This document shows positions 13,829 to 16,532 of a DNA stretch of 64,000 nt, piece by piece. Within the stretch, counting starts at the first letter, position 1. Each line of letters begins with the position of its first letter. The DNA comes from Pseudomonas sp. Seg1 (lineage in GTDB: Bacteria > Pseudomonadota > Gammaproteobacteria > Pseudomonadales > Pseudomonadaceae), in NCBI RefSeq assembly GCF_018326005.1, contig NZ_AP021903.1, positions 6,259,501 to 6,323,500 of the forward strand. Reading direction: 5' to 3'. A program made the position numbers and the translations under genes. A model generated the notes under the pieces. It worked only from the letters and a program-made list of their open reading frames with translations, did not search any database and was not told where the DNA came from.

Positions 13829-13845
13829 GAGTTACTCGTCGTCAG

Positions 13846-13882
13846 GGCCGGATAGATCCGCAGAATTTATCCGGCCTTTTTA
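13846..13882 (+). terminator. Rho-independent terminator after the quinone oxidoreductase gene
   Basis: GGCCGGATA (13846-13854) pairs with TATCCGGCC (13868-13876), followed by TTTTTATA. It separates the housekeeping oxidoreductase gene from the bacteriocin cassette. Confidence 0.85.
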
Positions 13883-13933: not shown

Positions 13934-14001
13934 GCTATCTACCGCAGTCGTTTCAGCAGATCACAGTAACTTGATCCCATACAGACACAAGGAGTAACTG
14001 T

Positions 14002-16260
14002 ATGAGTGATCAAAACTGGCGACCAGGCTATACAGACTTAGACACCACCCACATCATTGGAAATAGAACTCAAACTTATTCACCAAACTCTGAAGGTGGA
14101 GGATACGACCGTACTGGTCGAACGAGAAATAGAAGCCGAACTGGCTCAGACCTGTTCAGCCAACTATCAAGGCAAGACATCGCCGATATAAATGAAGCCG
14201 TTTTCATTTCGCAAACGGTTCAACACATTGAGGCAAGCAAAGCAGCAATAGCCAATGAACACCACGTAAAATCCAGTCAACTTTCCACCACTCTTCAATC
14301 CGAGATCAACACAGTCACTGCGAGTCTTGGCGGTGTCAACGGTATTACGCCTGTCGAGGCAATTACGCGCCAACAGACAGCCCTTACTCATCTGATACAT
14401 ACAAAAACTGCAGAGCAAAATAATAACCAGGCAAGAGCAAATGCATTTTATGGTGCTGATCCGCTGACCCGAACTCAACAGGATCTGATCAATGTCTACC
14501 TCCACATACCCGCGTCGGAAGTCCTTCATAGATGGACCGACGCTTACACGTCCGCTTTCGCAGCACAAAGGAATGCTGAAGAGCTAAGGCAACTGACGCA
14601 CAAGCTTCATGTCCTGTCTTATCAGTTAACACAGGCCTACCAGGCAGAGGCACAGCAGGTTGCCAGGTTGCAAGCGCAAGCGGCAGCACTAGCTGCGAGA
14701 GCAAAGGCTGAAGCTGAGCATGTGACGAAAGTCGCGGCGCAAATTGCGCAAGCAAAGGCCGAAACCGAGCATGCGGCCAAGCTCGCAGCACAGATCGCGC
14801 AAGCTGAACTGGATGCTAGAGAAGACGCACTGTGGGAAGCGAGACAAAAGGAAGCCAGGCAACTTAAAGCAGCACAACAAGCCAGGCGAAGAAGAAAGCA
14901 AATCGTAGCTTCCATCGTTGCCTCCGAGTTTGATTCGAAGCTGCGTCAATTCTCTCAGAACCAACCAGAGGGTATCGATGAGAAACTACGTTGGATAAAA
15001 GACCACTATCAAGCGCTCTATGCCGGATACCTCGCAGTGTCCAAAGCGGAAAGAGAGGTCGGTGGCGGCTACAAAACTGCGGGAAGCGAAAAGCGTTGGA
15101 GCGTATTGAATAATGCTCAAGACGAAATCAAGGCGTTAACTCGCCAGAAATACAAAATTGATAAAGTACAAATACCCTTGATTGACGGCACAACTACTGC
15201 CGTTCGACCACTTGTCGTCACCGCAGACGGCTTGATTTCCGGGCATGAAGGCTCACCTTTCTCACCCGCTAAAGCACTCGGTTCCCTGAATGACCTTCGC
15301 ACAACCCTCACCAGTGGGCCAATCGGCGTCTTTCTAGCTTCAATTTTCTACACTCCGACACTTGGAAACGGCGAGCTACAGCGCAATCCCGTGGTAGTCA
15401 CCATACCGCTGTCTCAGTTTTACCCAGAGCGTAAATACTCCCCATCTGGAACACCTGTTCTCCTCTACTGGCTGCGGCACCGCGTAGTGGCATCCGCCCG
15501 AGGAGAACACACACGACTCTATCTTGAGTCGCCCAAAAACAGCTTTGGCGTGAGGGTCAGGCAAGCCAGTTTTGACCCCCAAACAAAACTTTACACGTTC
15601 ACTACCGAAGGCTTGATCCCGATTACGCTGACCTGGACTCCTGATTCACCGCCAGGTGATGAGTTATTGAACAGCACCGACCTGCCGGCTACCGACTCCG
15701 GTATCCGAATTTATCCCGGAGCGAGAGTCACACAAATCGAGGGGCGAGTAGACGAACACCCCTCCTGCGACTTTGACGATCCTGATGATTACATCCTGGA
15801 GTTTCCGATAGAGTCGGGGATCGAATCCATCTACATGATGGCCACTCGCGGCGGCCCGCGTTATGAGCCGGGTACGGTGGCAGGCACAGGGCAGGTGGTT
15901 GGCGAAAATTGGTTGGGTAGCGCGACACAACCAAGTGGCTCGCCGGTTCCTGCACAGATTGCGGATCAGTTGCGTGGTCAGGATTTCAGAAACTTTGATA
16001 GATTCAGGGAAAAATTCTGGCGTACGGTCGCTGCTGATTCGGACCTTTCAAAGCAATTCAGCAAAGCTGACCTCAAGCTATTAGCGAATGGTGCAGCGCC
16101 CAGCACTGACGAGATAGACTCTGTTGGCCGAAGGGACAAGTACGAAATCCACCACATAGAACACATCAAAGACGGCGGTGAAGTTTATAACATTGAAAAT
16201 TTAACTATAATGACCCCTCACGCACATATAGAACTACACAAGAACGGTATAAAACCATGA
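14002..16260 (+). CDS. S-type pyocin/colicin-like bacteriocin with HNH DNase domain
   Basis: A 752-residue secretion-signal-free toxin that kills related bacteria by cutting DNA. A polar, probably disordered N-terminus (1-60) precedes a helical region (60-220). A long Ala/Gln/Lys coiled coil (about 180-305) contains two adjacent 17-residue repeats (234-250 and 251-267). The S-type pyocin translocation domain covers about 410-620. The C-terminal DNase (about 632-752) aligns with colicin E9: VGENWL, PVPAQIADQLR, then R711, E715, H717, H718, H742 and H746 of the HNH/beta-beta-alpha-metal motif. AAGGAG precedes the ATG. The immunity gene overlaps by 4 bases. AT-richer codons than neighbours suggest horizontal acquisition. 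The receptor is unknown. Confidence 0.95.
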   Translation: MSDQNWRPGYTDLDTTHIIGNRTQTYSPNSEGGGYDRTGRTRNRSRTGSDLFSQLSRQDIADINEAVFISQTVQHIEASKAAIANEHHVKSSQLSTTLQSEINTVTASLGGVNGITPVEAITRQQTALTHLIHTKTAEQNNNQARANAFYGADPLTRTQQDLINVYLHIPASEVLHRWTDAYTSAFAAQRNAEELRQLTHKLHVLSYQLTQAYQAEAQQVARLQAQAAALAARAKAEAEHVTKVAAQIAQAKAETEHAAKLAAQIAQAELDAREDALWEARQKEARQLKAAQQARRRRKQIVASIVASEFDSKLRQFSQNQPEGIDEKLRWIKDHYQALYAGYLAVSKAEREVGGGYKTAGSEKRWSVLNNAQDEIKALTRQKYKIDKVQIPLIDGTTTAVRPLVVTADGLISGHEGSPFSPAKALGSLNDLRTTLTSGPIGVFLASIFYTPTLGNGELQRNPVVVTIPLSQFYPERKYSPSGTPVLLYWLRHRVVASARGEHTRLYLESPKNSFGVRVRQASFDPQTKLYTFTTEGLIPITLTWTPDSPPGDELLNSTDLPATDSGIRIYPGARVTQIEGRVDEHPSCDFDDPDDYILEFPIESGIESIYMMATRGGPRYEPGTVAGTGQVVGENWLGSATQPSGSPVPAQIADQLRGQDFRNFDRFREKFWRTVAADSDLSKQFSKADLKLLANGAAPSTDEIDSVGRRDKYEIHHIEHIKDGGEVYNIENLTIMTPHAHIELHKNGIKP

Positions 16261-16532
16261 AATTAAAAGATAAATTCGAAGATTATACCGAAGAAGAGTT
16301 TTTACTTTTTGTGACGGAATTTTTTGAAGATACAAACGGCCTTACCGGCGACGCACTAAGTGCATATACAAGCAATCTCGCACTTCATTTTGAAAAAATA
16401 ACTGAGCACCCAAAAAAACGCGCGGTTATATTTCGCCCGGCACCTGACCGCGAAGACAGTCCTGCTGGAGTCGTAAAAGAAGTCAAAGAATGGCGTGAAG
16501 CAAACGGTAAACCCGGCTTTAAGCCTGATTAA
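16257..16532 (+). CDS. Bacteriocin immunity protein (colicin E/pyocin S DNase immunity family)
   Basis: A 91-residue four-helix immunity protein that should bind and block the DNase domain of the upstream bacteriocin. The start MKLKDKFEDYTEEEFLLFV and the C-terminal DREDSPAGVVKEVKEW followed by REANGKPGFK are the family hallmarks. The ATG overlaps the toxin stop (ATGA), ensuring coupled synthesis. The helix III hot spot D-L-I-Y-Y-P of Im9 reads A-V-I-F-R-P (56-61), so the central aspartate and both tyrosines are changed. Codon use is strongly AT-rich, like that of the toxin's 3' end. Confidence 0.95.
   Translation: MKLKDKFEDYTEEEFLLFVTEFFEDTNGLTGDALSAYTSNLALHFEKITEHPKKRAVIFRPAPDREDSPAGVVKEVKEWREANGKPGFKPD

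Follow-up and report, generated by a model that had tools for sequence, protein, structure and literature searches.

The pyocin locus

The DNA analysed here (the window) is a 64,000-nt stretch, positions 6259501-6323500 of the 6.6 Mb single-contig genome of Pseudomonas sp. Seg1, and all positions of its features are counted within that stretch. On its + strand it carries a two-gene bacteriocin unit, toxin then immunity gene, and this text concerns the interface between the deoxyribonuclease (DNase) domain of the toxin and its immunity protein (Im), where the hot-spot residues known from colicin E9 and Im9 are replaced on both sides. The toxin gene (14002..16260, +) is an open reading frame (ORF) for an S-type pyocin, i.e. 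a bacteriocin, of 752 amino acids, in which two Pfam domains score above their cut-offs: the Pyocin_S domain (PF06958, residues 516-613, 15547..15840, +, E-value 9e-20) and the HNH DNase domain (PF21431, Col-Pyo DNase, residues 624-747, 15871..16242, +, E-value 2.7e-47), the latter with 160.5 bits against a cut-off of 27. Solved relatives of the DNase domain in the PDB are pyocins S2, S8 and AP41 and colicins E2/E7/E9. The motif of the HNH DNase bacteriocins, HHX14NX8HX3H (PMC5536347), is present as H717-H718, N733, H742 and H746 (16150..16239, +). A first-pass annotation of the window, made from the letters alone, had described the catalytic residues as kept, and R711, E715, H717, H718, H742 and H746 are indeed all in place, as is N733.

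The Im gene (16257..16532, +; 91 amino acids; PF01320, Colicin_Pyocin) lies directly downstream and overlaps the toxin gene by four bases, toxin stop and Im start sharing ATGA at 16257-16260. Its nearest solved relative is ImAP41: an AlphaFold2 model of the protein has a mean predicted local distance difference test score (pLDDT) of 95.1, and the four nearest solved chains found with Foldseek are the ImAP41 chains of 4uhp (query template modelling score 0.92-0.95, 50-52% identity). A model of the DNase domain, built on a shallow alignment of 7 rows, had a mean pLDDT of 61.6, dropped under 50 in loop 4 and in part of the HNH region, and was not used. The most likely reading of the pair, as far as its sequence tells, is a functional S-type pyocin of the HNH DNase type together with its cognate Im, on the AP41-like side of the family.

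Upstream of the toxin gene, a terminator-like hairpin (13844-13878) separates it from the preceding ORF, and AAGGAG (13989..13994, +), a motif with a role in ribosome binding, is read as its probable ribosome binding site. The only NCBIfam match of the toxin (14002-16260) is to NF047924, a model for a type VI secretion system effector DNase, with 150.7 bits where the cut-off is 900 (residues 537-746), which is a matter of shared domains and not of family membership.

Hot-spot residues on the two sides of the interface

Residue 86 of colicin E9 is Phe (PMC12927319; title of PDB 2vlq). The first-pass annotation had equated this Phe with Ser701 of the window DNase, and had read the D-L-I-Y-Y-P motif of Im9 as A56-V-I-F59-R60-P61 in the window Im; both assignments hold. 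With phmmer, residues 4-131 of the DNase query fall on residues 5-132 of the colicin E9 chain 1bxi_B, and these equal spans bring residue 701 (16102..16104, +) onto E9 86. The same column, in gapless alignments, holds Tyr in pyocin S2 and Phe in pyocin S8, and corresponds to Tyr722 of pyocin AP41; an alignment error at Ser701 was considered, and the gapless alignments speak against it. On the other side, helix III of the window Im (R55-A56-V-I-F59-R60-P) aligns on S-G-V-I-F-H-P of ImAP41, and its A56-P61 (A-V-I-F-R-P) on D-L-I-Y-Y-P of Im7. Arg55 (16419..16421, +) thereby takes the position of Im9 Ser50, Ala56 (16422..16424, +) that of Im9 Asp51 and ImAP41 Gly56, and Arg60 (16434..16436, +) that of Im9 Tyr55 and ImAP41 His60.

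The exosite to which Im binds (helix V and loop 4, after PMC4548480) was located by alignment to S2 and AP41 at approximately residues 685-711 (about 16054..16134, +). Within it, the AP41 loop Y722-A-V-P725-E726 underlies window residues 701-705 (S-T-D-E-I), so that Asp703 (16108..16110, +), at E9 position 88, lies on AP41 Val724, while Glu704 (16111..16113, +) lies on AP41 Pro725 and the window has no Pro there. Further upstream in the exosite, Asp690 (16069-16071) replaces the Asn of the NxxxphixxGxAP motif of Joshi et al. (PMC4548480).

Joshi et al. (2015; PMC4548480) solved the complexes S2-ImS2 and AP41-ImAP41 and, from 17 pairs, distinguished two Im subfamilies, one with [S/T]DLIYYP in helix III and an ImAP41-like one in which Gly (Ala in one instance) replaces the Asp. 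Loss of this Asp was said to be "always" paired with a Pro in loop 4 (AP41 Pro725), which fills the space left by the lost side chain. The contacts that the paper names for Im residues 53-60 of AP41 are with the DNase residues equivalent to 701, 702, 704 and 705, and also 693: His60 bonds the backbone carbonyl of Tyr722 (the 701 position), Im residue 55 shares a water with the carbonyl of the 702 position, and the aromatics at Im 59 and DNase 701 stack. Specificity in the solved pairs is mostly set by helix II.

Measured against these two subfamilies, the window pair lacks the Asp of the canonical motif and, with Ala56, agrees with the Gly/Ala of the AP41 type; the loop 4 Pro of that type is replaced by Glu704, and of its two aromatics Phe59 is kept, but residue 701 is Ser. 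Since Glu704 stands at the AP41 Pro725 position in the alignment of residues 701-705, the window pair reads as the Im half of the alternate (AP41-type) class without its DNase half. The new specificity class that the first-pass annotation had proposed must therefore be trimmed: disappearance of the helix III Asp does not by itself define a new class, as it was already described for ImAP41 (PMC4548480), whereas the absence of Pro704 and the presence of an acid at 703, despite that loss, are new. No class with Arg60 and an acid at 703 is described in the titles or abstract openings listed by searches of open-access PMC papers, subscription papers being outside the scope of those searches; nor do the listings name the Pseudomonas fluorescens PS655 pair described below.

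Covariation and ancestry of DNase-Im pairs

For comparison, 163 distinct DNase-Im pairs were retained from 262 DNase hits after removal of 99 (54 duplicates, 43 with low scores, 2 without HNH), superseding a first count on 151 pairs. A held-out set of 37 pairs (66 hits minus 29, i.e. 15 duplicates, 13 with low scores and 1 without HNH) brought the total to 200; it came from loci L221-L277, which were picked partly for similarity of Im or DNase to the window and include five near-identical viral contigs. Because the HNH pattern served as a filter, the histidines are conserved in all 200 pairs by construction. PF21431 is present in 158 of 398 genomes sampled within the genus, one of them being that of the window, and, in a class-level draw of 369, in the window's own genome only. 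Scans with an alignment of the window-type DNase gave 4 loci in genome contigs and 11 in viral contigs (46-47% identical). Most of the collected pairs therefore come from Pseudomonas. A further search for relatives, centred on G108, yielded no new locus. In five loci (L125, L126, L138, L153 and L154), stretches that resemble the DNase but are short and score low, with immunity genes behind them, lie near higher-scoring pairs; they may be what is left of older pairs, or sources for recombination.

E9 proves of little use as a reference pattern for Pseudomonas, and Ser701 taken by itself is nothing unusual: the full E9 combination (F701/D56/Y59/Y60) occurs in 7 of the 200 pairs and an aromatic residue at 701 in 76. 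The rarity implied by the first-pass annotation has thus largely gone, as 124 pairs lack an aromatic at 701 and 21 have Ser or Thr there. A non-aromatic 701 combined with a non-Asp 56 and a residue 60 other than Y/F/W is found in 12 of the 200. Five of these 12 (L074, L091, L093, L116 and L144) belong to another hot-spot type, with Gly56-Tyr59-Asp60 in Im and Thr/Ala701 and Pro704 in the DNase, its Asp60 being opposite in charge to Arg60 of the window. There is also a weaker trend for Phe59 to go with an aromatic 701 (46/70 among 151 pairs; p 0.006 over clusters at 70% identity, 0.19 at 60%), to which the window, with Phe59 and Ser701, is an exception. The helix III motif Ala56-x-I-F-Arg60-P itself recurs in Pseudomonas fluorescens PS655 (L157), in G108 (L080) and in six database homologues (P0003-P0008).

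The residues that change together with those of Im helix III lie elsewhere in loop 4, at 703 and 704. Im56 is non-Asp in 30 of the 163 pairs, and Pro704 is present in 21 of them. Asp703 is found in all nine that remain, whose residue 56 is Ala in three (the window, L157 and L080), Asn in five and Met in one. Conversely, the 133 pairs with Asp56 include no case of Pro704 and two of an acid at 703, and in the full set Pro704 does not occur with an Im Asp in any of 166 cases. Among the 200 pairs, non-Asp 56 is found in 11 of 13 pairs with an acid at 703 versus 23 of 187 others. A scan of 57 DNase positions puts acid 703 first as the partner of non-Asp 56; as the partner of Arg60 it comes second to Asp690. 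In the reverse scan, over 50 Im positions, the strongest partner of acid 703 is Arg/Lys at Im 60, followed by Im 55, and an acid at 703 or 704 accompanies Arg60 in 11 of 11 pairs versus 26 of 189 others; five of these eleven lie outside the group of six to which the window belongs (see below). With one pair per cluster at 70% identity (66 clusters), the median p is 3e-7 for non-Asp against Pro704, and p is 9e-5 for Arg60 against acid 703.

An unguided analysis of inter-protein coupling, over 10,962 column pairs, ranks 703-56 at 78, 703-60 at 121, 704-56 at 452 and 703-55 at 899. For position 701 the ranks are 51 with Im 38, 1136 with Im 60 and 1256 with Im 59, and a simple 701-60 link, i.e. 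the compensation of Ser701 by Arg60 proposed in the first-pass annotation, was dropped on the strength of its rank versus that of 703-60. The top couplings join exosite positions to Im helices I/II (704-46, 693-38, 689-23), where specificity is known to be determined. With the numbering shifted by a constant five, T38 of the window Im corresponds to Im9 residue 33, in helix II. Covariation over the 200 pairs thus supports, at the level of sequence, co-change through Asp703/Glu704 and not through Ser701. Of the earlier proposal of a co-changed pair with charge compensation, what stands is that both sides of the hot spot have changed in this lineage and that charged compensation is likely; the partner appears to be different.

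The ancestry of the pairs was approximated with a quick tree rooted at the midpoint (which is not an inferred root). The window, L157 and L080 group together (support 80) and join L100, L130 and L075 (support 99), all six having Arg60 and an acid at 703. This group of six then joins pairs with Ala56 and Pro704 (support 83) and pairs with Gly56 and Pro704 (91), i.e. the AP41-type combination, although the AP41 pair itself is absent from the tree. In L100 and L130, Pro704 is still present next to acid 703 and Arg60, and the two look like intermediates, judging from their residues. If the surrounding Pro pairs are ancestral, the simplest order would run from Pro704 with Ala/Gly56, via the gain of acid 703 and Arg60, to loss of Pro704 on two lines. 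In a tree of the DNase only (56 rows: 20 chosen loci and 36 database proteins), the window's branch (support 93/79, below the star mark) comprises 33 rows, all with D/E at 703, of which 18 keep Pro704. Among the Im homologues P0002-P0009, Arg60 is present in 8 of 8 while P0005 has Ser55, and Arg60 is therefore steadier than Arg55. Across the tree built without the trait columns, non-Asp 56 changes with the composite trait of Pro704 or acid 703 in 6.8 of eight supported contrasts, with 0.4 opposing (median p 0.031), the composite having been chosen after the data were seen.

A proposed interface, its rivals and known pairs

Following these results, we consider the pair as a whole best explained, with a probability of roughly 0.6, as an AP41-like pair that has lost the Im Asp and in which Asp703 of the DNase fulfils the role of this Asp, held by Arg60/Arg55. 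Im would use helices II and III to dock on the exosite, next to the active site, and Asp703 would take over the charge role of Asp51 in the colicin Im proteins; since the AP41 contacts are at 701, 702 and 704, an acid at 703 would sit in the middle of the helix III contact. Arg60, and probably also Arg55, would meet its carboxylate in a predicted salt bridge, Phe59 would pack without an aromatic partner at 701, and Asp703 together with the arginines would make Pro704 unnecessary. Specificity should then differ from that of both the canonical and the AP41-type pairs, helix II presumably still setting most of it. That this amounts to a hot-spot class of its own, the third, with the key carboxylate now on the opposite side of the interface (a loop 4 acid of the DNase in place of the Im Asp, held by arginines of Im), is a more tentative idea, with the odds leaning somewhat against it.

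Several results count against this interpretation. The link between acid 703 and Arg60 is a clear pattern, but one that rests on few origins: Arg60 changes four times on the tree built without the trait columns, which gives three supported contrasts; an acid at 703/704 changes in step with it in 2.9 of them and in the opposite sense in none (p 0.25), and acid 703 alone agrees in 1.8 of 3. When clustered at 60% identity (36 clusters), Arg60 against acid 703 has a median p of 0.014 and a worst draw of 0.16. The coupling of 704-60 ranks 5112, which makes the pooling of 704 with 703 for Arg60 a choice made after seeing the rows (three of them). Moreover, Asp690 is as tightly tied to Arg60 as Asp703 is (p 5e-10 versus 3.6e-9), and shared descent must therefore contribute sizeably. 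The rule of Pro704 or acid 703 was itself framed after the 163 pairs had been seen, and the 37 held-out pairs contain no new acid-703 pair, so that only its Pro half has met fresh positive cases. The 33 held-out Asp pairs all lack both Pro704 and acid 703, as expected; of the four non-Asp ones, two have Pro704 and two have neither, the misfits being L237 (Asn703-Asp704 with Arg60) and L254 (a loop shorter by one residue). Finally, two pairs keep the Im Asp in spite of acid 703, L153 with Arg60 and L076 with Cys60.

An alternative is that Im still binds as ImAP41 does, which we regard as rather unlikely. ImAP41 is the nearest relative both by sequence and by model, and its His60 bonds the carbonyl at the 701 position (PMC4548480), yet such binding leaves unexplained why all nine non-Asp, Pro-less pairs of the 163 have an acid at 703, and why every Arg60 pair has one at 703/704. 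Overlapping with it (the two are not exclusive), and unlikely as well, perhaps a shade more so, is ordinary drift of the exosite, with hot-spot residues varying freely, helix II carrying the binding and the 703-60 link reflecting the shared descent of one branch. The scarcity of the E9 pattern, the variability of Im56, Im59, Im60 and DNase 701, the strongest couplings being with helices I/II, the equal tie of Asp690 to Arg60 and the few contrasts of the tree-corrected tests would all fit drift; the complete avoidance of Pro704 by Im Asp, the regularity with which Pro704 or acid 703 follows Asp loss on the tree, and the five Arg60 pairs with acid 703 or 704 beyond the window's own group would not.

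Direct compensation of Ser701 by Arg60, as first suggested, is already disfavoured and seems improbable: the bond from residue 60 to the backbone carbonyl of the 701 position in AP41 (PMC4548480) lends it some plausibility, but Arg60 is also found with Phe, Tyr, Asn, Arg, Thr and Leu at 701, Ser701 occurs in other pairs with Tyr60 and Gly56 or Asn56 in Im, and the low coupling rank adds to this. Least probable of all, to the point of being barely credible, is a decaying pair whose toxin has escaped inhibition or lost its activity; the joint absence of several residues expected from E9/Im9 speaks for it, but both frames are open, the catalytic residues are kept, and the same helix III motif recurs in PS655, G108 and P0003-P0008.

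How protein pairs of very high affinity and specificity change partners is a question for which DNase-Im pairs serve as a model. The window pair is ordinary as far as its genes go and, on its sequence, informative as an exception to the published rule (17 pairs; PMC4548480), which fails in the three Ala56 pairs and in six Asn/Met pairs. At the interface the 200 mostly Pseudomonas pairs show considerable variation, and some of them are candidate natural intermediates, so that the question can be put to the test. If Asp703 does stand in for the Im Asp, the relatives with Pro704 and Gly/Ala56, with Pro704, acid 703 and Arg60, and with acid 703 and Arg60 but no Pro would represent natural steps of a specificity switch; if the link of acid 703 with Arg60 is drift, the window pair is just another pyocin. 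Elsewhere in the same genome, outside the window (5508389-5510317), a second HNH DNase pyocin (loop APKARY) is followed by five tandem immunity genes of the same family, one of them with an in-frame TAG; the three genes that were read have a canonical Asp-type helix III, and the array looks like a set of spare antidotes, to judge from these genes.

Among the known systems, AP41/ImAP41 (PDB 4UHP) is the closest to the window Im by sequence (phmmer, 94 bits) and by fold. It shares the loss of Asp51, the Phe at 59 and a loop 1 longer than that of the colicin Im proteins (the window Im aligns without a gap to ImAP41 and with one of four residues to Im7), but has Ser55, Gly56, His60 and Tyr722-Ala-Val-Pro725, where the window has Arg55, Ala56, Arg60 and Ser701-Thr-Asp703-Glu704. 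Pyocin S2 (4QKO) provides the nearest solved DNase domain (141.5 bits), whereas the S2-ImS2 pair has Tyr at the 701 position and, in its Im, a helix III of the canonical type (PMC4548480). Colicin E9-Im9 (1EMV) belongs to the same DNase family by sequence, with an exosite alignment of equal length and the same Im fold, but its Phe86 and Asp51/Tyr54/Tyr55 are Ser701 and Ala56/Phe59/Arg60 in the window; judging by their titles, PDB complexes with the single mutants F86A, D51A and Y55A of E9/Im9 exist. The pair of P. fluorescens PS655, lastly, has the identical S-T-D-E loop and RAVIFRP helix and a DNase 86% identical to that of the window, from which it differs in scattered residues only.

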